IMG/VR virus record: IMGVR_UViG_3300050032_000062
Coordinates: 1 to 37,185 of that record
Reading direction: 5' to 3' (one strand)
DNA length: 37,185 bases
DNA from: a virus
Shown in pieces: positions 4,919-30,106 of the stretch. The position numbers were made by a program, and so were the translations under genes. The first letter of the stretch is position 1. Each line of letters starts with the position of its first letter. The notes under the pieces were generated by a model. The model ran no database searches. It was given only the letters and a program-made list of their open reading frames with translations, and was not told the origin of the DNA.

Positions 4919-5181
4919 AGCGCATCCTCTATATCGCACTGCATTACTTCAACAATAGGGTTGGTTAAAATATTATAAGTTGCTAGACAATCTTTGATGA
5001 AAGTTTCATTGCTAAAAGAATCTTTAAAGCAAGCTACAAGAAATGTTCCCATAGTTAACCAGTTGGGATTTTCAGGATCTTTGGAAACTTGAATGAAATA
5101 TTCGCTCTCGTTCCTGTGAATTGTTCCGTAATTCGCTTGAACATGCTTTGTTGGATTATTGTATTTTTCAATGATATCCAT
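4915..5181 (-). CDS. Hypothetical protein, 88 aa
   Basis: I do not recognise this family. The 88-residue product is soluble and acidic, with no signal or membrane segment. It contains an aromatic middle and a likely helical C-terminal half. It starts with AAAGGGG a few bases upstream, overlaps the ligase stop by one base (TAATG) and overlaps the lipoprotein start by 4 bases. It is therefore translationally coupled in the minus operon. Confidence 0.7.
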   Translation of the reverse strand: MDIIEKYNNPTKHVQANYGTIHRNESEYFIQVSKDPENPNWLTMGTFLVACFKDSFSNETFIKDCLATYNILTNPIVEVMQCDIEDAL

Positions 5182-5975
5182 TAATCCCCTTTAAAATCTT
5201 TGACCTTCAATTTCCACATTACTGGACTGGCTTGGTTGTTATTAAATCTAACAAGTGGTTCACTTCTTGCAACTATACCTTCAAGAATGTAATTCGGTGA
5301 TGGTTTAACAATAATTCCGGTACCTGCTGCTGCTATAAATATATTCTTGGGAGTTGTTATAGTATTTGCTCCATACATACCTCTAGGTTTCGATTTAATG
5401 AACGAAATGATCTCGTCTTGAGTCATCATACCAAAATCATGTGGCGTCTCCAATTCTAGCAAATTTGCTAGATGTTTGACTTCTTCTCTTGTTGACCATC
5501 GTCCACCCATATAGACATCAAACAAAATGAAGGATATATCGTTACGGTAAATACCCCCTGATTGTATTCCTGCACCGAAACCTTCACCGAATAGAACGGT
5601 AGAATATACTTCACCATTTATTGGAAAAAGATCTAATTTTGTTTCAAAATGTTTATTCCAAATAAAATCAATTAGTTTTTGGTTTAATTGAGCTTTATTT
5701 GTTCTGCCATGAATTTCAATAGAACATTCAGAGTTAAACATTTTACTAGCTAAATATATATTTTCTTTAGGTTCAAAAGCATTTATTAATGCAGCCTCAG
5801 TTTTATTTTCAGGTTTTCTATATCGATAAATATGGACCCTAACGTTGGTTCCATCTATCTTTTCTTGCACCCTCCATTTGTTGATGGAAGCAAATTCAGG
5901 ACATGAGTAATCACCTTCGATAAAGTTATGATCTTCTGCCCTTTTCCATAGACTGTTTATTTTTGGGTATTCCAT
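5181..5975 (-). CDS. RNA ligase (Rnl2-like nucleotidyltransferase core)
   Basis: The 264-residue protein shows the ordered motifs of ATP-dependent RNA ligases. Motif I is EKIDGTN (K39 would be the adenylated lysine). It is followed by FGEGFG (motif III), FILFDVY (IIIa), LEGIVAR (IV) and MWKLKVKDF (V). It ends right after motif V, so it lacks the extra C-terminal domain of T4 Rnl2. The family seals nicked or broken RNA, often tRNAs cut by host defences. The frame is open to 6050, but I place the start at 5975. AAAGGA lies directly upstream, and the longer version would run through two hairpins (5992-6037). It follows an ERF-type recombinase and starts just after a terminator-like hairpin, so its expression may need read-through. 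Confidence 0.85.
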   Translation of the reverse strand: MEYPKINSLWKRAEDHNFIEGDYSCPEFASINKWRVQEKIDGTNVRVHIYRYRKPENKTEAALINAFEPKENIYLASKMFNSECSIEIHGRTNKAQLNQKLIDFIWNKHFETKLDLFPINGEVYSTVLFGEGFGAGIQSGGIYRNDISFILFDVYMGGRWSTREEVKHLANLLELETPHDFGMMTQDEIISFIKSKPRGMYGANTITTPKNIFIAAAGTGIIVKPSPNYILEGIVARSEPLVRFNNNQASPVMWKLKVKDFKGD

Positions 5976-5985
5976 TTTATCCTTT

Positions 5986-6011
5986 AAAAAAGGGGCCAGC
6001 CTCCTGACCCC
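5986..6011 (-). terminator. Terminator-like hairpin before the RNA ligase
   Basis: Read on the minus strand, an 8-bp GC-rich stem (6004-6011 with 5992-5999) with a 4-base loop is followed by six T (5991-5986). One pair is G-U only in the minus transcript and a mismatch in the plus transcript, which supports minus-strand function. It lies between the recombinase gene and the ligase ribosome binding site. Confidence 0.75.
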
Positions 6012-6019
6012 CGAGAAAG

Positions 6020-6037
6020 TACCCCCAGAAGGAGGTA
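6020..6037 (-). other. Second RNA hairpin upstream of the terminator
   Basis: A 7-bp stem (6020-6026 with 6031-6037, loop of 4) lies directly after the recombinase gene. As with the neighbouring terminator, it pairs fully only in the minus transcript because one position is a G-U wobble. The two tandem hairpins could protect an mRNA end or time expression of the ligase. Confidence 0.5.
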
Positions 6038-6052
6038 TGTAATGAAGCAATG

Positions 6053-12585: not shown

Positions 12586-12927
12586 ATGTCTGCTGATGCT
12601 ATACAAATTAAAATAGTCACAAAAATAGAAGAGTTAGAAGATCAGATTCAACTTTTAAAAGAAAAATCATTTAGACGGATTACAATCCCTTCAATTAAAA
12701 ATAAAATAATTTTTCTAGAAAGCTTAGAATTAGTCACAGATCTGGAAGAAATAGAAAAAGTCAAAAAAGAAGCCGAAGAACAATTCGAACTAGTAAATGC
12801 AATGAAAGAAAGCGTTTATCGTGTGCCAACTTTAGATAATTCGCCAGACTATGCTTTTTTTGTTCCCAATGAATTATCAAAAACTTTATCAGAACTTAAA
12901 AAAGAATTACAATATCTTGAAGAGTAA
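12586..12927 (+). CDS. Hypothetical coiled-coil protein, 113 aa
   Basis: This acidic, helical protein is coiled coil at residues about 8-30, 45-75 and 95-113. AAAGGG sits 7 bases before the ATG. It is the first gene after the strong switch promoter at 12513, so it should be made early in the lytic programme. No domain recognised; an anti-repressor or host-takeover role is possible but unsupported. Confidence 0.6.
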   Translation: MSADAIQIKIVTKIEELEDQIQLLKEKSFRRITIPSIKNKIIFLESLELVTDLEEIEKVKKEAEEQFELVNAMKESVYRVPTLDNSPDYAFFVPNELSKTLSELKKELQYLEE

Positions 12928-12944
12928 TAATTATTGGAAAATGT

Positions 12945-13045
12945 TTTATGAACAGCCAACTTAAACGAGTATATCGACAAGACACCCAGGAACACACGAG
13001 TGTGGAAGAACAACTTTACGATATTAAGCACAAAACAGTTCCCCA
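12945..13045 (+). repeat. Direct repeat, copy 1 (shared N-terminal module)
   Basis: This 101-bp segment recurs at 13762-13886 with 2 mismatches and one 24-base in-frame insertion in the second copy. It covers the start codon and first ~33 codons of the 252-aa gene. Confidence 0.85.
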
Positions 13046-13706
13046 TAAATCTAGTATACAGGAATTACAAGTGATATCCAAAGAAGAGATAAAAGCAAAA
13101 AAACAAGCAACAATAAAACGCAACAAAGAAGAAGCCGAGCAAAAGAAAGCATCGGGAATAGATACTTGCCGAGGTTGCAATATAGAATTTCAAAAGATAG
13201 ATACTAAGGCTGCTACTACTTGCTCTTGGGAATGTGCATTATCAGCCTCACAAACAGGAAACTTAAGTTATCTAGGTGGTGGAAAACCCTTTTGGACTAG
13301 AGATAATGGCAAATGTTGGACAAGCCATTTTCTTGAAACAGTTGTACACAAACATCAAGAGCGTGAGCTTAAAGACGTTGCTGATGACTTATATCTAGAA
13401 AAAGAACACCTCAAAGACGTTTGTTCTGCTTTAGGTTGTGAACGTATGAATAGAAAATGCGTTAACTGGCATCATTTTAAAGTATATTCTGATATAGAAT
13501 GGTTATTGCGCGATTCTGAAAAGGAAGATATAGCTTTTTATCTGGAAAAAATGATTAAAAATTCAAAAGATATTATTATAGAATGCTTATCTTATACTCA
13601 CGATGAAGGAAAAGATCTACCTGATAAATTTGATGAAATAGAAGAAGAAAATAAAAAGATTAAAGAATGCCGTGAGATATTAGAAAGAATAAAAGTACAA
13701 AGATAA
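12948..13706 (+). CDS. Cys-rich protein sharing its N-terminus with the next gene
   Basis: The 252-residue protein begins with a module (residues 1-33, MNSQLKRVYRQ ... EEQLYDIKHKTVP) that is almost identical to the start of the next gene. It continues with a basic helix (to about 65), a zinc-like site (CRGCNIEF ... CSWEC), a region with a Gly-rich turn and CVNWHHF, and a C-terminal coiled coil. GGA lies 9 bases before the ATG. The central part could be an HNH-like or DNA-binding zinc domain, but no full motif is visible. The gene looks inserted between the two copies of a repeated N-terminus. Confidence 0.6.
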   Translation: MNSQLKRVYRQDTQEHTSVEEQLYDIKHKTVPHKSSIQELQVISKEEIKAKKQATIKRNKEEAEQKKASGIDTCRGCNIEFQKIDTKAATTCSWECALSASQTGNLSYLGGGKPFWTRDNGKCWTSHFLETVVHKHQERELKDVADDLYLEKEHLKDVCSALGCERMNRKCVNWHHFKVYSDIEWLLRDSEKEDIAFYLEKMIKNSKDIIIECLSYTHDEGKDLPDKFDEIEEENKKIKECREILERIKVQR

Positions 13707-13761
13707 GAAGGCGATACTTGAAAAATGATGCAAAAAATGCAACAAATCTTATGTGTAACCC

Positions 13762-13886
13762 TTTATGAACAGCCAACTTAAACGAGTATATAGACAAGAA
13801 ATAGATGGAGCAGAGCGACATCACACCCAGGAACACACGAGTGTGGAAGAACAGCTTTACGATATTAAGCACAAAACAGTTCCCCA
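13762..13886 (+). repeat. Direct repeat, copy 2 (shared N-terminal module)
   Basis: The second copy of the 12945-13045 segment contains an additional 24 bases (8 codons, EIDGAERH region). The high nucleotide identity between copies points to a recent duplication or gene conversion. Confidence 0.85.
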
Positions 13887-14082
13887 GCATGAATCATCAA
13901 CCTGGAGAAATCCGTTGAACAATCAACAACCTTGGTACGAAAAAGCCCCCAAACAATATACAGAAGTCGAACACATTCAACACCAATTGATCTTCAAGGA
14001 AAATTATCACAAAAAGCTACCCTTTATGGCCGATGCCCTAGTAGTATTAAAAAAGATTATGGAAAGTGAGAAAAAAGAATGA
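13765..14082 (+). CDS. Hypothetical protein upstream of RusA, 105 aa
   Basis: The product is polar and helical. Residues 1-43 match the N-terminus of the previous gene (with an 8-residue insertion). The rest is unique and rich in Gln, Glu and aromatic residues. No convincing Shine-Dalgarno precedes ATG 13765, unlike the previous gene. This suggests the original ribosome binding site was captured by an upstream insertion. The stop overlaps RusA by 4 bases. Function unknown. Confidence 0.6.
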   Translation: MNSQLKRVYRQEIDGAERHHTQEHTSVEEQLYDIKHKTVPQHESSTWRNPLNNQQPWYEKAPKQYTEVEHIQHQLIFKENYHKKLPFMADALVVLKKIMESEKKE

Positions 14083-14567: not shown

Positions 14568-15174
14568 AGAAAAAAACGCTATAAACGCCGTCGTAGCCGA
14601 GAATGGACACCAGGTATTACCTGAAACCCCCAATAATAGCACTAAATTAAAAAAAAGACCCAATAGAACTTCCCCCAGTGGCGTAGATAGCATACATGCT
14701 TTCTTTAACTGTAATACGGGATTTCCTGATAACATTTCTGATTCACAACTCTTACAACTTGGCAGAGAGTATATTAAATGGGCTAGAGAGTACAATATAG
14801 AACTAGGCGTACCTTTAAAGCAAACCTTTTGGTTAGACCACGGCATTTCTAGGTTTAACTTACAAACTTTTCGTAAGTCATTACCCGAACTAAATGAACT
14901 GGTAATAACTGGTGATGAATACTGCGGCGAAACTAGAGAGAAAATCATAAGAAAGTACTATCATGGTATATGGGCAAGACAAGCGGTTTATGTCTCTGAC
15001 TATATGGCACATGATGAGCACATGATTGAAGTTCGCGAACGTATCAAACACCAAATAGACAAAGAAGAGGGACTAACACCTCAACAACAACAAACCTTGT
15101 TCTATTCCTTTATGGAACCATTTTTAAAAGACAAGAAGCCAGATATAGATAAGAAAAACGATGCAGGAAAATGA
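14539..15174 (+). CDS. terS: Terminase small subunit (probable)
   Basis: The 211-residue protein starts at ATG 14539, with AAGGAG 7 bases upstream. It has a basic, disordered N-terminus (to about residue 60), a helical centre with LNELVITGDEYCGETREKIIRKYYHG, and a charged C-terminus ending in a Lys-rich tail. Its place between RusA and TerL, with a 14-base overlap into TerL, is the main evidence. Small terminases bind pac/cos sites and form rings; the DNA-binding helices are not obvious here. Confidence 0.6.
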   Translation: MSPIKEGTNREKNAINAVVAENGHQVLPETPNNSTKLKKRPNRTSPSGVDSIHAFFNCNTGFPDNISDSQLLQLGREYIKWAREYNIELGVPLKQTFWLDHGISRFNLQTFRKSLPELNELVITGDEYCGETREKIIRKYYHGIWARQAVYVSDYMAHDEHMIEVRERIKHQIDKEEGLTPQQQQTLFYSFMEPFLKDKKPDIDKKNDAGK

Positions 15175-23695: not shown

Positions 23696-24570
23696 TGTCA
23701 GATGAATCAAGATTAGAAGAACAAATGATTAATGAAGCAATGCAAGAAGATGCAGCAAAGAAGAAAGCTGCAACACCAGTTCCAGCGACACAGGTTGAAC
23801 CTACGCCTAGTGACCATACGAGTATGGACATTCCACTTGTTGCTAATGTTGAACCTGTACAAGTTGCCTCAGTACCACAACCAACGCAGGATAATTCCCC
23901 GCAGGAATCTTGGCGCTATTTACGAGAAGAGCGAGAGAGACTTGAGAAGAAGTTAGAGCAAGAACGTAATGAGAAACAAGAACTAATTAGGTATATGCAA
24001 TCCCAACAAAACCAACAGCAACAAGTACAACAAACCCCAGAAGAAGAAGAATATCAGGCGCCACAAGACGAATACCTTGAGGGTAAACATCTCAACAAGT
24101 ACCAACAACAAACGAAGCTTAGAATTGATCGTGAGACAAAAGCCAGACAAGAATCAGAAAAGAGAATGTATGAGATGATGGTTCAACAACAACTCATGAT
24201 GGATCTTCCTGATTATAGACAGGTCTTTACGGCTGAGAATCTAGATAAACTTGAGAAGATGAACCCTGACCTGGCTAAAAGCATAATCTCCAATCCTGAC
24301 CCATTATCTAAGCGTAAAGCTACATATGAAGCCATAAAGGCATTTGTCATACCTGCTAGAGCAAATGAAGCCAAAGAAGCAGATTTAAGAATGCAAGCAG
24401 AAAAGGTTACTAAGAATTTTAATAAACCCGTTCCTACCAGTTCAACAGCGTCATCACCTTTAAGTAAAGCTAATGCCTTTTCTGATGGTACCCTTACAGA
24501 TGAACGCAAAACTGAACTGTTTGAGGACTGGCATAAGAAATCTACTGCAAGTTATAACTTCAAGAGATAA
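23695..24570 (+). CDS. Scaffold-like protein
   Basis: This 291-residue acidic protein is dominated by coiled coil and Gln/Glu-rich low complexity. It has a disordered Pro/Thr/Val-rich N-terminal third and a long coiled coil at about residues 75-170 (LEKKLEQERNEKQEL, QQNQQQQVQQ). The C-terminus has a basic/aromatic tail, as scaffolds use for coat binding. Size (P22 gp8 is 303 residues) and position directly before the coat gene support the call. The stop lies inside the first unit of a tandem dyad array. Confidence 0.75.
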   Translation: MSDESRLEEQMINEAMQEDAAKKKAATPVPATQVEPTPSDHTSMDIPLVANVEPVQVASVPQPTQDNSPQESWRYLREERERLEKKLEQERNEKQELIRYMQSQQNQQQQVQQTPEEEEYQAPQDEYLEGKHLNKYQQQTKLRIDRETKARQESEKRMYEMMVQQQLMMDLPDYRQVFTAENLDKLEKMNPDLAKSIISNPDPLSKRKATYEAIKAFVIPARANEAKEADLRMQAEKVTKNFNKPVPTSSTASSPLSKANAFSDGTLTDERKTELFEDWHKKSTASYNFKR

Positions 24571-24615
24571 ATCTCGTAGAGATAAATCTCGTAGAGATAA
24601 ATCTCGTAGAGATAA
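24565..24615 (+). repeat. Tandem array of dyad repeats at the scaffold stop
   Basis: Three complete 15-bp copies plus 6 bases of a fourth form this array. Each unit contains ATCTC-GTA-GAGAT. The first unit includes the scaffold TAA. The array can form three successive small hairpins in the mRNA. It is too short and too uniform to be a CRISPR array. Confidence 0.85.
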
Positions 24616-24653
24616 TTGAGAAGACTTCATTACTACTCTCCTTTCTCCTTTTT

Positions 24654-24688
24654 CCGTCATGTATTAAAACCACATGACGGTTTTTCTT
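24654..24688 (+). terminator. Terminator between scaffold and coat genes
   Basis: A perfect 9-bp stem (24654-24662 with 24672-24680) with a 9-base loop is followed by TTTTTCTT. It separates scaffold from coat transcription, leaving the coat gene to its own promoter. Confidence 0.9.
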
Positions 24689-24716
24689 GCATGTAAATTG
24701 AAAAAAGTATTAAGAT
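24687..24716 (+). promoter_or_regulatory. Coat-gene promoter
   Basis: TTGCAT (24687-24692) and TAAGAT (24711-24716) are 18 bases apart, directly after the terminator. The TAAGAT -10 matches the promoters at 9336 and 10486. The predicted start is near 24724, which leaves a leader of about 184 bases. Confidence 0.6.
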
Positions 24717-24723
24717 ATCTATG

Positions 24724-24907
24724 AGCGCAAATCTGGCGGGACATCGCTCCCCTGCCCCGGAGCGAACCGGTAATCAACTATCGACGCAATAGTGACTCGT
24801 CACCACATCTCTTAGACGCAAAAGCAATCTTTAAGTCTCGTCTAGCTTAAAACGTATAGTCGTACCGCTTGGTACAATGTTTACTATATTTTTTAAGGTA
24901 TAATATC
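24724..24907 (+). promoter_or_regulatory. Structured coat mRNA leader with attenuator-like hairpin
   Basis: This region has no gene. It contains hairpins 24744-24765 (7 bp, GC-rich), 24777-24793, 24813-24844 and 24862-24875. The last is enclosed by TATAGT (24855-24860) pairing with ACTATA (24883-24888). Six T follow (24889-24894), then the coat AAGG. This resembles an attenuator just before the ribosome binding site. ACTAT at 24777-24781 could instead pair with the 24855-24860 strand, giving a possible switch. Confidence 0.5.
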
Positions 24908-25216
24908 ATGCAAATAGTTACGACAAGTAATTATAAACCCGCTATAACTGCGCAGGCTGCTGATACTCTATTATCCACACCTACAGCTAGAATGATTCAT
25001 AAAATTCCAGCTCAGATGTCGGTAATGAAATCACGCGCCGGTACGGTACAGCGTAATGTTAGAATCAATAACTTTCCTCTGGCTACTGTAGAAATAGGTA
25101 ACTCGGGCCAAAACCCAGCACCTATTATTGCTACAAAGATCAATATTGACGTAAAGCCACAACTCTACGGTTACACGGCCGTAGTAAAATCCTCTCTGAT
25201 AGTCTTGAACGCCTAA
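24908..25216 (+). CDS. Major coat protein, 5' exon-like part
   Basis: The frame starts at ATG 24908 (AAGG upstream) and closes at TAA 25214-25216 after 102 codons. Residues 1 to about 92-96 (IPAQMSVMKSRAGTVQRNV to QLYGYTAVV) form the N-terminal part of an N4-gp56/P22-type coat protein. The rest of the fold is encoded after a gap of about 200 bases. In homologues the YG-x4-[IV]-x-[DE]-Q segment is continuous; here it is YGYTAV at 25165-25183 and VNEQ at 25411. The last codons before the stop are probably intervening sequence. The full coat would be about 318 or 323 residues, depending on the junction. Confidence 0.75.
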   Translation: MQIVTTSNYKPAITAQAADTLLSTPTARMIHKIPAQMSVMKSRAGTVQRNVRINNFPLATVEIGNSGQNPAPIIATKINIDVKPQLYGYTAVVKSSLIVLNA

Positions 25217-25410
25217 GGTACATGAGTACTATGGTAACAAGGTGGAACCCTTTTATTGGTATAAATAATTGGGACCATGAACGCAGTAAGCGAGAGGACG
25301 TCTTAACAGACGATGCGGTACTCTGAACAACGATCGAAAGACGTTGAGGTAGGCTGAGAAGATCTACCCGCCCTTAGGGGTCATAAAGTAACAGATTGCA
25401 ATTCATGTAT
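25184..25410 (+). other. Structured intervening sequence in the coat gene
   Basis: About 212 to 227 bases interrupt the coat gene. They fold by eye into a closed domain. The closing stem is 25212-25218 with 25372-25378 (7 bp). A second stem is 25224-25230 with 25317-25323 (7 bp, one G-U). Arms are 25231-25235/25274-25278 with inner CCC/GGG; 25299-25303/25308-25312; 25328-25332/25342-25346 capped by a GAAA tetraloop; and 25348-25352/25364-25368. Exon bases 25178-25186 can pair over 9 bp with 25227-25235, competing with two of these stems, as in guide-sequence recognition. I could not place a standard group I P7 core or a group II domain V, so the class is unknown. There is no intron-encoded protein. 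Confidence 0.6.
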
Positions 25411-26091
25411 GTCAATGAGCAAGTAGTTCTCCAGAACGAAGAAGACGTAATACACAATTACGCTATCCGTTTTGGTGTATCTATGAGGCTTTCAGAAGAC
25501 AGATTGATGAGAGATCTTTTGGCCTCTTCAGCTTCGAGATTGAACTGTGTAGGCGGAGTGAATGGCGACACACCTAGTGAAATAACTGCTGCTGACTGCG
25601 TTGACGCAGAAACAACTCTAGCTAGCGCAGATGCACTAACGGTTTTGGACAGTATCGAAGGTGAAAATCGTTACGCTACTGCACCAATTCCTAATTCGTA
25701 TTTCTGTTTATCGCATACGTCGATTATCAGAGATCTGATGGCTATTGGAGCTGCGGATTTCGTGAGAACGATCCGTTATCCAAGTCAGACAAACATTCTC
25801 AAGTCTGAACAAGGATCTGTAGGACGCTTACGATTCTTAACCTCGTCACAAGGTTCGTTAACTCTTAGCTCTAGTAAACTTGGCAGAACAGTTCTTAATA
25901 ACTTCTTTGTTGGTATTGAAGCTATTGCGTGTATCTACGTAAATGAACTATCCAGTGAGTTTATCTATCTGCCTAAAGAGTTTAGCGGTGGGTTGTGTCA
26001 AAACGTTGTACTTGGTATGAAGTTCTTCGAAGCTCCAGCCATATATAACGATTTGTGGGTCGGTAATCTAGCTTCAACCCCATCAAGATAA
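25408..26091 (+). CDS. Major coat protein, 3' exon-like part
   Basis: This 227-codon frame encodes the remaining coat fold: VNEQVVLQNEEDVI, SMRLSEDRLMRDLLASSAS, then IPNSYFCLSHTSIIRDL, RFLTSSQGSL and a C-terminal domain ending NDLWVGNLASTPSR. The pattern matches N4-gp56-type coats, including the conserved RDxLxA helix. The frame is open from 25396, but neither TTG 25396 nor ATG 25405 has a Shine-Dalgarno, so independent translation is unlikely. The two halves together have the size of one coat. The stop TAA is followed at once by a 14-bp palindrome. It is expected to be the most abundant virion protein. Confidence 0.8.
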   Translation, partial: YVNEQVVLQNEEDVIHNYAIRFGVSMRLSEDRLMRDLLASSASRLNCVGGVNGDTPSEITAADCVDAETTLASADALTVLDSIEGENRYATAPIPNSYFCLSHTSIIRDLMAIGAADFVRTIRYPSQTNILKSEQGSVGRLRFLTSSQGSLTLSSSKLGRTVLNNFFVGIEAIACIYVNELSSEFIYLPKEFSGGLCQNVVLGMKFFEAPAIYNDLWVGNLASTPSR

Positions 26092-26105
26092 GAACACGCG
26101 TGTTC
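26092..26105 (+). other. Palindrome at the coat stop codon
   Basis: GAACACGCGTGTTC is a perfect 14-bp palindrome starting one base after the coat TAA. It is another stop-proximal dyad of the head region. Confidence 0.7.
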
Positions 26106-26119
26106 GAAAGGAATATAAT

Positions 26120-27193
26120 ATGTCATATATGGACGTAGTTGGAGGTGTATTTACCTCCACAGGTGTTAGCAAAGTAATACCTATTAAGATTAATTTTGAT
26201 TGGATGGAAACATACAATTGGACAGTAATTAATGCTCAGACCAATAATGCTGCTACAAGAACATATTGGCAGCGTGGAATGGCCGCTAATGACTGTATTT
26301 ATACTTATTTTAATGCTGGTTCTACAGCTATTAATACCGGAACAGCATTGAACTTTCCAGGTGGAGCAATGCCTGGTTATACAGAATATAACTCAGGCAA
26401 TGAAATATATGGTGCTACGAATTACACCAATCTATTACAGCCTATTGCTATTACAGCTATTTCTGGTGCTAATCCAGGCGTAGTTACTACAGCAGATATT
26501 GTAACACCTGCACTTGCTAATGGTGATATTGTTCGTTTTAGCAATACAAATCCACAAGTTGGTCAATTTGGCGGTATCGACTTTACAGTCGGTGCAGTAA
26601 CAAGTACCGGTGGAAACGCTGGAACATTTACAATTGCTTTTGGCCCAGTAGTAGTTGCTGGTGCCGGTATGGCCGGATTCTATCGTAAATTGAAATATGA
26701 TTCTACTTGGTCGCCAAGAAAGAGATACATCTCCAAGATTCGTTCTGTTGGTGTAACAACACAAATCACAATGACCGTAACACATAACTTATTGGTTGGT
26801 GAAATCGTAAGATTCCACATTCCATCAGTTCGTGGATCGGCTGCATTTGGAATGGTTGAATTAGACAATTTAACCGGAACTATTACAGCAATTAATACGG
26901 CAGACGTTGATGGTGTTCTAAATACTATCACAGTTGATATCAATTCATCTGCATTTACTGCATTCCAATGGCCATTAACTGCATTTGATAGATTTACAGC
27001 CCCAACAGTATGCCCAATTGGTGAAGATGCTACCGATACTTTCTCCAGTGACACAATCACTGACGATAAGATTATTAACGTAGCCTCTAAAGGTATCATT
27101 CTAGGTGGTAATACAACAGTTGTATCACCTGTTGGTGCCGCTGGGAACGTAATTTACTGGAAAGCCGGTAACTTCTGGACTCAGAACGGTTAA
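26120..27193 (+). CDS. Minor head/decoration protein with FCCH-like beta domains
   Basis: The product has 357 residues and is almost all beta, with no coils. It has two similar segments: about residues 112-175 (PGVVTTADIVTPALANGDIV ... GTFTIAF) and about 205-285 (TVTHNLLVGEIVRFHIPSV ... NTITVDI). The pattern of a turn before GDIVRF, then a strand, resembles the FCCH-type domain seen in phage decoration and baseplate proteins. It follows the coat gene with AAAGGA upstream. It is probably an abundant head-surface or head-tail protein. It ends at a dyad array. Confidence 0.65.
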   Translation: MSYMDVVGGVFTSTGVSKVIPIKINFDWMETYNWTVINAQTNNAATRTYWQRGMAANDCIYTYFNAGSTAINTGTALNFPGGAMPGYTEYNSGNEIYGATNYTNLLQPIAITAISGANPGVVTTADIVTPALANGDIVRFSNTNPQVGQFGGIDFTVGAVTSTGGNAGTFTIAFGPVVVAGAGMAGFYRKLKYDSTWSPRKRYISKIRSVGVTTQITMTVTHNLLVGEIVRFHIPSVRGSAAFGMVELDNLTGTITAINTADVDGVLNTITVDINSSAFTAFQWPLTAFDRFTAPTVCPIGEDATDTFSSDTITDDKIINVASKGIILGGNTTVVSPVGAAGNVIYWKAGNFWTQNG

Positions 27194-27195
27194 TT

Positions 27196-27240
27196 AACTC
27201 TTCGAGTTGAAAACTCTTCGAGTTGAAAACTCTTCGAGTT
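27196..27240 (+). repeat. Tandem array of dyad repeats after the 357-aa gene
   Basis: Three copies of AACTC-TTC-GAGTT have a 16-bp period (27196-27208, 27212-27224, 27228-27240), starting directly after the stop. A degenerate fourth unit follows. The number, stem and loop size match the array at 24565, but the sequence is different. Confidence 0.85.
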
Positions 27241-27264
27241 ATAAACTCGCATTGAGACAGTGGG

Positions 27265-27293
27265 GTGGGGAACTATCCGTTTTCCTGCCCCAC
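27265..27293 (+). other. GC-rich hairpin in leader of next gene
   Basis: GTGGGG (27265-27270) can pair with CCCCAC (27288-27293), with a 17-base loop, between the dyad array and the next ribosome binding site. No T run follows. Confidence 0.4.
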
Positions 27294-27336
27294 ATAAGAA
27301 CGAATACACGGATACACACTTATAGTAGGAGAAAAA

Positions 27337-27906
27337 ATGACCGAGATTTTAAAAGACACAAGTGTCAACGAGATAACAGGCAAGCCAACAGTAGGTGTAA
27401 CAGATGGTAGTTCTGCTGCAATGACACCACCTGTACAACCAGCAACAGTAGTTAATACAGCGCCAGCACCTTTACGACCTGGTCAAGAAGTTAAAACACA
27501 GCGTGTATTTAAACGTAGACCTGTTGAGAAAGATGTAACTAAGCAAACCAAGGAAGAAGTTGAGTACATCTTGGATGAATACTCTGAGATAGTTTCAGGA
27601 ACTATTATTAACCATGAACAACCTGGTAATCCAGTTGAGTTCTGGTTTAGAGGTAATGGTTGTCCTGATATAACCAAGTTTGAGTTTGCTGACAACAGTT
27701 ATGTAAAGATGCCAGTTGGTGTAGCTGAGCATATAAATAAGAACTGCTGGATAGGCAAAGACCGTGATGGTGTAAATGAAGTTGGCAAGGCAATAATCGA
27801 AGTAGGACGCAAAGTACGCCGCTACTCGTTTATCCCTAGTGGGTACTTTGGATCTATTGATTTGAAGCCCGTGGGCGAAGCGATGTTGCCACTTTACAAA
27901 CAGTAA
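27337..27906 (+). CDS. Hypothetical structural protein, 189 aa
   Basis: The N-terminal ~60 residues are Pro/Thr/Val-rich and disordered. A compact domain follows with EYILDEYSEIVSGTIINHEQPGNPVEFWFRG, then KYNGIGKDRD-like and YSFIPSGYF segments. TAGGAG lies upstream. It sits between a probable decoration protein and the head-completion genes. No family recognised; perhaps a head-surface or neck protein. Confidence 0.6.
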   Translation: MTEILKDTSVNEITGKPTVGVTDGSSAAMTPPVQPATVVNTAPAPLRPGQEVKTQRVFKRRPVEKDVTKQTKEEVEYILDEYSEIVSGTIINHEQPGNPVEFWFRGNGCPDITKFEFADNSYVKMPVGVAEHINKNCWIGKDRDGVNEVGKAIIEVGRKVRRYSFIPSGYFGSIDLKPVGEAMLPLYKQ

Positions 27907-27919
27907 TAGGAAATAGGAA

Positions 27920-28360
27920 ATGTTTTGCATAGAAGCGCCGGATCATCTTATTAGACCATGTACTAAATTGATACAAAATGTGACCAATGCGAATCCTGCA
28001 TTGGTCACGACCATTAACCATCATCATTACAAATCAGGAATAATGGTTCGTTTAGTAATACCGGAGTCTTGTGGGATGCAACAAGCAAATGGATTAGATG
28101 GCGAGATTACTTTTGTAGATGATAACAACTTTACCATAGCTATAGACACCACTCATTTTGATGTATTTGCCATCCCTACGGTGTTTTTACCAACTCCTGG
28201 TGGTATTCCAACTTGGGTTAACACTTGTCCACAGGCCGTTCCTTGTGGCGATACCAGTACCGGAGAACATGCCAAAGAACCAAGCAAATTAGCCCCTAAG
28301 AACATTAATAGGATTCAGCAGGGGTATTATAATCAAGTACCTATGAAAGACTGGAGGTAG
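27920..28360 (+). CDS. FCCH-like beta protein, 146 aa
   Basis: The protein is beta-rich. Its core, about residues 20-95 (NPALVTTINHHHYKSGIMVRLVIP ... NNFTIAIDTTHFDVF), repeats the pattern seen in the 26120 protein and near the end of the 30122 protein. A flexible C-terminal tail carries Cys-Pro and Pro-rich parts. Its ribosome binding site is a doubled AATAGGAAATAGG. It lies directly before the gp4-like gene, so a neck or head-tail joining role is plausible. Confidence 0.6.
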   Translation: MFCIEAPDHLIRPCTKLIQNVTNANPALVTTINHHHYKSGIMVRLVIPESCGMQQANGLDGEITFVDDNNFTIAIDTTHFDVFAIPTVFLPTPGGIPTWVNTCPQAVPCGDTSTGEHAKEPSKLAPKNINRIQQGYYNQVPMKDWR

Positions 28361-28362
28361 TC

Positions 28363-29394
28363 ATGCCAATAATTGATACCGGATTTTCAACTCTGCAAAA
28401 CATTATCCAAAAAGTTAGAACCATTACATTCAGACCATCTGTTAATCAGATATCAGATGACCAGATAAAACATTATATAAATGTTTTTACTCTTTATGGA
28501 TTTCCTGAGGATATTAAGTTATTCAATTTAAAGAAGACTTTGACGTTTTATACCAATCCATACATCGATATTTATGATACTTCAAATCTGTTGCCTGATG
28601 ATCCACTATATAACTTTTACAATACATATACCTTTACGGGTGATCCCGTATATGTAAATGGTTTACAGGCTACGTTTCTACAAGACAGAACGCAGTTCTT
28701 TAATCTATATCCATTTATCTACTCAACTGATACTATTGGCACCGGAGATGGAATTAATGTAAATTTTTCTGGTTTTTTACCCAATCATCCATGCTTGGAG
28801 AATAATGTCATTATAACTTCAACTGATAGTTATGGCGTAGGAATAGTTGTTCAAGATATACCGGATATTAATCCCATAACGGGATACTATTTGCCACATG
28901 GAACTCTAGTAGAACCTAATTTTAAATCTGTAGCTCTAGGAACTATAGATTATGTAACAGGTGCTTACACTGTAACATTACCAACTCCTCCTGGCCCTAA
29001 TGAAAATATAACAGCAAAGACTAGTTACTATAATCCATCAATACCAAGAACAGTTCTATTTTTTGATAAACAATTCACCATACGGCCAGTACCCGACAGT
29101 GTTTATGCTATAAATGTTGAAGTTTATAAACGTCCTGATGCTTTATTGGATACGGCACAAATGCCTGAGTTGGCTCAGCATTGGATGTATATTGCTTATG
29201 GTGCTGCTCTTGAGATCTTTATGGATAATAGAGACATGGATAGTTATAACGAGAAACTAGGTCGGTTTAAAGAACTGGAGCAGGAAGTAAGGACTAAGGC
29301 AGCTATGCAGTTATCACAACAAAAGGTAACAACTATTTATGACATGCCTTACTACTATGGGAACTACAACAACCCATTCGGCTACAGGATTTAG
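28363..29394 (+). CDS. Head-completion/tail-adaptor protein (gp4-like)
   Basis: The 343-residue protein has an N-terminal helix-rich adaptor start (STLQNIIQKVRTITFRPSVNQISDDQIKHYIN), a beta middle, and a C-terminal helix pair. The pair (LAQHWMYIAYGAALEIFMDNRDMDSYNEKLGRFKELEQEVRTKA) is typical of phage head-tail connector proteins. The gene lies between coat-region genes and the gp10-like tail gene, as gp4 does in P22. GGAGG precedes the ATG. It probably binds below the portal. Confidence 0.7.
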   Translation: MPIIDTGFSTLQNIIQKVRTITFRPSVNQISDDQIKHYINVFTLYGFPEDIKLFNLKKTLTFYTNPYIDIYDTSNLLPDDPLYNFYNTYTFTGDPVYVNGLQATFLQDRTQFFNLYPFIYSTDTIGTGDGINVNFSGFLPNHPCLENNVIITSTDSYGVGIVVQDIPDINPITGYYLPHGTLVEPNFKSVALGTIDYVTGAYTVTLPTPPGPNENITAKTSYYNPSIPRTVLFFDKQFTIRPVPDSVYAINVEVYKRPDALLDTAQMPELAQHWMYIAYGAALEIFMDNRDMDSYNEKLGRFKELEQEVRTKAAMQLSQQKVTTIYDMPYYYGNYNNPFGYRI

Positions 29395-29396
29395 AG

Positions 29397-29474
29397 ATGA
29401 TAGAACTAATATTATTTATAACATTCTTTATTGCAATTCTAGCTTCTATGTTTTACGTAATTAAAAGGGATTAA
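29397..29474 (+). CDS. 25-aa single-helix membrane peptide
   Basis: A short frame between two structural genes (AGGA 7 bases upstream) encodes MIELILFITFFIAILASMF and a short basic tail. It is a second tiny membrane peptide like the one at 8082-8156. Its place among virion genes is unusual. It could be a minor virion component, a regulator, or a non-functional frame. Confidence 0.4.
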   Translation: MIELILFITFFIAILASMFYVIKRD

Positions 29475-29476
29475 AA

Positions 29477-30106
29477 ATGGCTTACCAGAGCGCGATTCCG
29501 CAATCTACAGATAAAATTTCAGTATCTCAAGGTGACTTATTGGGTAACTTTACAGAAGTTAATACGGCATGGAATTTAAACCATGTACCTTTCAATCTTA
29601 GTAATGAAGGGCAACACTGGTTTATCAGTATGCCTAATCAGCCAATTACGCCATCCGTAAATCCACCTGCAACAAATGGAACCACCATAGGCTTATATGC
29701 AACTGGTGGAAATCTATATTTCAGACCCGTCAGTCAAACTGCTGGAACAGTAACAAATGACGTAAATTTAACAAATACTACGGCGGGTAATGCTACAAAT
29801 GGCTGGATGCAATTTCTTTCAAGGGTAAAACAGGCATGGGGCATAATTACAGTAGTACCGGCAGGTACTACAGGAACACCAGGACATCAAAAATTAACCT
29901 TAGATAATGCGACTATACCTGGAATACCTACATTCACTACAATTTATAATGCTCAAGTTTCATGTGTACAGCCAGGTGGTTTAGATAAAAATGTATGGTT
30001 GAAAGTTACACAACCAGTTGTTGCACCAGCTACAGCAGGATATGTAACAGTATATAATCCTAATAGTAGCGCCATTGCAGCTTATGTTTTTGTAGTAGGT
30101 AATTAG
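29477..30106 (+). CDS. Structural protein, 209 aa (decoration/tail)
   Basis: The N-terminal part (SVSQGDLLGNFTEVNTAWNLNHVPFN followed by GQHWFISMPNQ) is a pattern common in phage head or tail structural proteins. The rest is a beta sandwich-like part ending in a hydrophobic strand. AAGGGA precedes the ATG. No enzymatic motif is present. It is likely a minor virion protein next to the tail genes. Confidence 0.6.
   Translation: MAYQSAIPQSTDKISVSQGDLLGNFTEVNTAWNLNHVPFNLSNEGQHWFISMPNQPITPSVNPPATNGTTIGLYATGGNLYFRPVSQTAGTVTNDVNLTNTTAGNATNGWMQFLSRVKQAWGIITVVPAGTTGTPGHQKLTLDNATIPGIPTFTTIYNAQVSCVQPGGLDKNVWLKVTQPVVAPATAGYVTVYNPNSSAIAAYVFVVGN

Follow-up and report, generated by a model that had tools for sequence, protein, structure and literature searches.

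The major coat gene of the virus studied here is almost certainly interrupted by a group I intron, complete in its P3-P9 core, which comparison of related sequences places at positions 25172-25398 of the window, i.e., the whole 37,185-nt stretch of IMG/VR viral contig IMGVR_UViG_3300050032_000062 that was analyzed. In relatives, the family to which this intron belongs is found to invade the same essential gene repeatedly, judging from the sequences, and many of their coat genes also carry much shorter inserts, which we regard as probable satellites of the neighboring full introns. The window intron is 227 nt long, lies on the plus strand in phase 0, and has its borders defined by P1 and by a 3' motif.

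The coat gene appears in the window as two open frames, 24908-25216 and 25396-26091, which a reading made from the sequence alone (the sequence-only reading) had taken for parts of one protein. This was borne out, as the joined protein could be aligned end to end with intact homologues, giving exon 1 at 24908-25171 (plus strand, 88 codons, ending in QLYG with the U of GGU as its final base) and exon 2 at 25399-26091 (plus strand, 230 codons and a stop, beginning QFMYVNEQ). The spliced coat has 318 amino acids and reads QLYG-QFMYVNEQ across the junction, in agreement with the intact homologues, where this region reads YGQYIILNEQ or YGTYVILNEQ; the intact coats of some relatives have 314-322 amino acids. 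For the second half, PHROG 1357 ("major head protein") gave a match that begins at profile position 116 (1e-10), and Pfam PF25209 (Phage_capsid_4) was matched by two of the three intact homologues tested, once above and once just below the cut-off. As had been read from the window sequence, there is a stop codon inside the gap, and a Shine-Dalgarno stretch before the second part is not evident. An insert with 100% identity is present in three more IMG/VR contigs, which stem from three metagenomes, and an assembly error in a single record is thereby excluded. Its fold is more stable than that of shuffled sequences (z of -2.45). Contig L003 is otherwise nearly identical to window positions 24019-30098 and has 10 bases fewer than the window. 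No match to the coat was obtained among 50,697 named phages with tblastn and blastn, the named phages with similar portals gave coat alignments too poor to locate the junction, and an AlphaFold2 model of the intact homologue L018 (17 sequences) was unusable, with a pLDDT of 45.

For the placement of the borders, about 45 relatives were gathered by a portal search, and the junctions in relatives were first located with a spliced aligner without any splice-site assumption. Many of their coats are also interrupted, at differing positions, and a common rule was found: a U ends exon 1, the insert ends in ..GUAACAGA..G, and the end of exon 1 is complementary to a stretch 6-15 nt downstream, with a G facing the U. 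In the window, the exon sequence CUACGGU (25165-25171) pairs with the guide GCCGUAG (25178-25184) to give a P1 of 7 bp (25165-25184, plus strand), with the wobble U25171.G25178 at the 5' splice site. The conserved 3' end AAAGUAACAGAUUG (25385-25398, plus strand) closes with G25398, a terminal G that is kept in relatives; its motif AGUAA is present in 220 of 243 distinct coat inserts, and a P1 of at least 5 bp in 211 of the 243. The borders were set at 25171 and 25399 because of the 7-bp P1 with its U.G, the conserved GUAACAGAUUG at the insert end, and homologues reading YGQYIILNEQ, so that the spliced junction is CTCTACGGT followed by CAATTC. Thus, of the two junctions offered earlier, 25183/25411 had the removed length right and is displaced by 12 nt downstream, whereas 25195/25408 is wrong. 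Likewise, the 9-bp pairing once proposed between 25178-25186 and 25227-25235 differs from the P1 that the family uses. P10, which is common and non-obligatory, has one base pair only in the window intron and at least three in 154 of 215 relatives. An exact-match scan for a P1 hairpin at this insertion site (the YG site) returned matches that are mostly due to chance.

The core was delineated with a hand-written structure including a P3/P7 pseudoknot, applied to a covariation set of 73 compact introns; all of its elements lie on the plus strand. P3 (25190-25298) is formed by UCCUCUC (25190-25196) and GAGAGGA (25292-25298), with 98.6% of cells paired and two-sided changes in seven of seven pairs across the 73 introns. 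Within the P4-P6 part, CUUG (25204-25207) pairs with CAAG (25238-25241) as P4 (25204-25241; 100% paired), GCC (25211-25213) with GGU (25233-25235) as P5 (25211-25235), and UGG (25243-25245) with CCA (25275-25277) as P6 (25243-25277; 100% paired, two-sided changes in three of three pairs in the 73 introns). P7 (25283-25323; 100% paired) consists of G25283-C25323 and of AGUA (25285-25288) with UACU (25319-25322). The former is by position the guanosine-site pair and is invariant in 73 of 73 introns (columns 138 and 209), and between the two parts the window has an extra bulged C25284, which is unusual and is shared with a minority of the introns in alignment A3. The P8 hairpin CGUCU/AGACG (25299-25312) was assigned from the sequence, its outer pair alone being well aligned across the set, and it is followed by the P9 hairpin CAACG/CGUUG (25328-25346; 100% paired) and the P9.1 hairpin GGUAG/CUACC (25348-25368; 79.8% paired). 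Over the 73 introns, 89.7% of cells are paired versus 70.0% in shuffles, and the covariation score is 0.510 versus 0.161 when shuffled and at most 0.154 with slid partners. The strong covariation extends over P3, P4, P6, P7, and P9, and both the P4-P6 and the P3-P9 domain, with the P3/P7 pseudoknot, are present in the window element.

The earlier statement that a standard group I P7 core is missing therefore has to be withdrawn, as P7 and P3 were both found in the window and both covary. Of the two options then left standing, a divergent ribozyme or excision by another route, the ribozyme holds and the other route does not, the element being a compact group I intron whose P3-P9 core is complete. 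Group II introns are recognized by a 5' GUGYG, a domain V, and a 3' AY; the window insert starts with UACAC and ends with UUG, and the Rfam group II models were unmatched, in line with the earlier reading, in which no domain V was found. P1, P10, and the terminal G are parts of the group I architecture as described in PMC3984707. In the window, exon 1 would pair with the intron guide as P1, with the U.G at the cut; guanosine would be bound at P7 of the P3-P9 core, which would cut after U25171, and the terminal G25398 would then serve exon joining to yield the 318-aa coat. The expectation that the intervening RNA needs to be removed from the coat mRNA is strongly supported by the comparison with relatives, and splicing of the window intron in the cell is very likely. 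Group I introns join their exons by themselves, and for this reason an RNA ligase is unneeded; the suggestion that the phage's own enzyme seals the exons found no support. An RNA ligase is encoded at window positions 5181-6050 on the minus strand (PF09414, 3.7e-12; PHROG 548), with no tie to the intron. A homing endonuclease gene is absent from the window intron, and longer introns of the family hold LAGLIDADG frames on either strand.

A covariance search, which had been named as a check, points the same way: with model R2, whose building did not include the window, 25186-25398 scores 127.3 bits (E of 1.9e-31). The same model had no further significant match elsewhere in the window and none in 364 kb from 30 relatives with uninterrupted coats. 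Rfam gave no match on the window, either at the gathering threshold or at E values up to 10, and among the relatives' introns scanned, RF00028 matched one, below threshold (30 bits versus a gathering threshold of 50; E of 9e-4). The missed RF00028 threshold is a limit of the Rfam model and not of the class; a widespread phage group I family escapes Rfam's group I model. With R2, introns were also recognized at 141-142 bits in podovirus ctn9Y15 (MW202674), where the CDS on either side is annotated as P22 coat protein, and in Desulfovibrio phage 7757 (OR395405), downstream of a long open frame and with an HNH-like frame further downstream. Judged from the neighboring frames, the long open frame is probably an anaerobic ribonucleotide reductase. 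A search of 22 records for a stand-alone catalytic core returned matches that, where checked, were all in the coat gene, and those of the 22 records without coat introns gave none.

The intron load was assessed in 56 distinct full-length coats; as these had been sampled by way of the portal gene, the state of the coat played no part in their selection. Full introns are absent from 26 of them, and the remaining 30 carry one (11 coats), two (11 coats), three (3 coats), four (2 coats), or five (3 coats). Over all loci, 243 distinct inserts of at least 150 nt were collected from many positions along the coat gene, and of the 122 complete coats with introns, 118 are left with an open frame by excision from after the U up to and including the G. 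As many relatives share descent, these counts are not independent events. The coat is needed in quantity by every virion, yet its gene tolerates up to five ribozyme introns, and the 26 intron-free relatives from the same sample allow a comparison.

Besides full introns, the relatives hold 28 distinct mini-inserts of 29-59 nt, 22 of which sit at the insertion site of the window intron (YG) and six at amino acids 82, 91, and 102; the weak small inserts of L324, L344, and L351 were excluded, and a small insert of L315 at amino acid 99 was rejected as belonging to a full intron. All 28 start after a U and end in G, and all have a P1 of 6-9 bp with a U.G at the cut and a P10 of 3-6 bp. Since their borders were picked among nearby alternatives for these features, this boundary rule is partly built in, which leaves the covariation unaffected. 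At the YG site, exon 2 begins with ACN (Thr), and the base N forms a Watson-Crick pair with the guide in 22 of 22 cases, in four combinations (C-G 11, G-C 5, U-A 4, and A-U 2), a match that 20,000 shuffles never equaled. Glycine is encoded by GGU at every YG mini-insert versus in 45 of 216 coats uninterrupted at this site. A full core does not fit in any of the mini-inserts, 23 of the 28 being 29-41 nt long, and no P7 was seen by eye in the listed sequences, most of which are too short for one. All 18 complete coats with a mini-insert regain their frame once it is removed.

A full intron lies downstream of every mini-insert, at a distance of 27-92 nt. Outside the portal sample, most mini-insert loci were found via an intron motif, so that this company is not independent evidence there; within that sample, short inserts occur in 10 of the 30 coats with full introns and in 0 of the 26 without (Fisher 0.001), the 10 being nine mini-inserts and one 4-nt insert, and the nine mini-inserts alone give a Fisher value of 0.002. 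After the guide, the tail of the mini-insert pairs with the exon in a helix, of 8-12 bp in most cases, that ends about 7-8 nt before the 5' splice site of the next full intron and thus abuts its P1. The best contiguous tail match is exactly at this docking site in 16 of 28 mini-inserts versus about 0.1 expected over some 900 spliced-coat positions, and most of the remaining ones have bulged or slightly shifted helices there. The docking site shifts according to where the neighbor lies, be it at amino acid 96, 103, 104, 116, 120, 122, or 123, and for the 14 mini-inserts whose neighbor is at amino acid 96, the tails fit their own exon with a summed -141.4 kcal/mol versus -61.0 +/- 9.2 when swapped. 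From the docking match and the own-exon fit together it follows that the mini-insert and its neighbor are coupled. The aa-96 introns of L034, L211, L330, L349, L353, and L371 have an unusually long P1 loop (e.g., UAAUAAAUAGAUCUUUGAAAU..GGUUUUGUAG), and a YG-site mini-insert accompanies each.

What the YG site holds in many relatives would thus be a remnant of 29-59 nt from which the core is gone and in which P1, P10, and the terminal G persist, and the remnant's exon-pairing tail beside the P1 of the next intron suggests excision by the neighbor's ribozyme, which is what we infer for the mini-inserts. On the whole, we consider it rather probable that they are core-less satellite introns, docked by an 8-12-bp helix and cut by the ribozyme of the next intron, with the window intron representing the full state and a possible source. 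Possibly, such satellites would be as small as 4-5 nt: frame-breaking inserts of this size are found at amino acid 117 in four coats (L057, L273, L349, and L199), with UACG, UUCG, UAUG, or UAAUG after the exon's U, and full introns occupy amino acid 117 in L030, L248, and L369. Here, the exon end ACUCCGU can pair with the exon sequence GCGGAGU, ending 7 nt before the next intron, at amino acid 143; these are small numbers from related loci. We know of no case of neighbor-catalyzed group I splicing, and in the open-access literature nothing was found on group I introns that lack a core and depend on a neighbor. The 34-kb record of L024 contains one full intron and one mini-insert of 38 nt, both within positions 18700-19250.

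Other explanations of the gap leave the RNA intact. Ribosomal bypassing as in T4 gene 60 could appeal to the glycine codon GGU ahead of the gap, which resembles the T4 take-off site; however, the last codon of the gap is UUG, unlike the take-off codon GGU, the last three bases of mini-inserts vary except for the final G, and the gap encloses a covarying group I core, so that we give bypassing hardly any credence. Synthesis of the coat as two polypeptides, one from each frame, is very improbable as well. Some mini-inserts (e.g., L024/L230, L033, and L194) do have a Shine-Dalgarno-like stretch together with an ATG in the exon 2 frame, but the window lacks an evident Shine-Dalgarno ahead of exon 2, and 8 of the 22 YG-site mini-inserts have no ATG, GTG, or TTG ahead of the conserved NEQ motif. 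Moreover, two polypeptides would leave the obligatory U.G, the terminal G, the P10 covariation, and the docking unexplained. A split coat gene with its own start was for these reasons (the startless cases, and the covariation of P10 and docking) dropped for the mini-inserts too.

Two further readings concern the mini-inserts only. They could be functionless, dead scars of lost introns, and the full intron at the YG site in the window and in L369 is compatible with an origin by deletion. Such scars would nonetheless disrupt the coding of an essential gene, P10 matches a synonymous base of the exon in 22 of 22 cases with four base combinations, and the tails fit their own exon far better than those of others (sums of -141 versus -61 +/- 9 kcal/mol), which makes this reading very improbable. 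A less remote proposal, if still an unlikely one, is self-splicing in the manner of the Phialophora rRNA introns, with the docking helix substituting for the missing core helix. In those introns (63-75 nt), too, P1 and P10 are found and the middle of the intron pairs with the 3' exon; in vitro splicing has been reported for the 67-nt PaSSU intron (PMC3160393). Against this stand the length of 29-31 nt, which leaves P7 no space, the docking site, which tracks the position of the next full intron, and the count of zero mini-inserts in the 26 coats without a full intron. Docking to and excision by the neighboring intron is the reading that we favor.

Some further features were observed in the window and its relatives. 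The large terminase gene (window 15161-16544) is split by a +1 shift at ACA CCC CCG, with a C5 run near 15661. As record G003 and L015, a relative with 85% identity, show the C5 run and the frame relation as well, the split may be a programmed +1 frameshift and not a sequencing error. Near-identical peptides (MNSQLKRVYRQ..) are encoded at 12849-13046 and 13660-13890, and within these regions the opposite frames GNCFVLNIVKLFFHTRVFLGV occur at 12948 and 13765, which suggests a local duplication. The coat relatives L186, L189, and L192 (genome_contigs) come from MAGs labeled Simkaniaceae, Parachlamydiaceae, and Parachlamydia, and the same introns are present in two of them, a hint that chlamydiae host some of these tailed phages, although the binning may be in error.

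Introns in phage capsid genes are already known, as in mycobacteriophage LittleE, where the removal of a group I intron from the major capsid gene was shown by RT-PCR, and in lactococcal phage Tuc2009, cited in the same study (PMC3706429). Like the window, LittleE has an insert in a capsid gene, with a U ending exon 1 and a G ending the intron (PMC3706429). LittleE, however, has a single 819-nt insert with an endonuclease frame, whereas the window intron has 227 nt and a resolved core, and the relatives of the window, unlike LittleE, carry up to five introns per coat gene. The introns of ctn9Y15 and phage 7757 belong to the ribozyme family of the window, known here by similarity alone, that of phage 7757 being located in a different gene. 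The interest of the family lies in the repeated invasion of one essential gene and in the probable satellite introns. A further parallel is provided by the Phialophora SSU rRNA introns (PaSSU, 63-75 nt), which have P1, P7, P10, and exon pairing (PMC3160393). The mini-inserts resemble them in a P1 with a wobble, in P10, and in the pairing of the intron with the downstream exon, but the PaSSU introns retain P7, end in U, and are sited in rRNA, whereas the mini-inserts have 29-59 nt, lack P7, end in G, interrupt a protein gene, and pair with the exon beside the neighbor's P1. A loss of the catalytic part is also seen in the group III introns of Euglena chloroplasts, for which machinery supplied in trans is thought to be needed (PMC4424553). 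These are derived from group II introns and their helper is not identified, whereas the mini-inserts have a candidate helper, the group I intron next to them on the same transcript. The mini-inserts thus resemble natural introns with splice-site guides only that depend on a neighbor's catalytic RNA. Spliceosomal introns have been proposed to originate from group II introns by way of core-less introns sharing a catalyst (PMC4424553), and a group I counterpart in phages with defined docking rules, if true, would make this kind of step testable in a small in vitro system.
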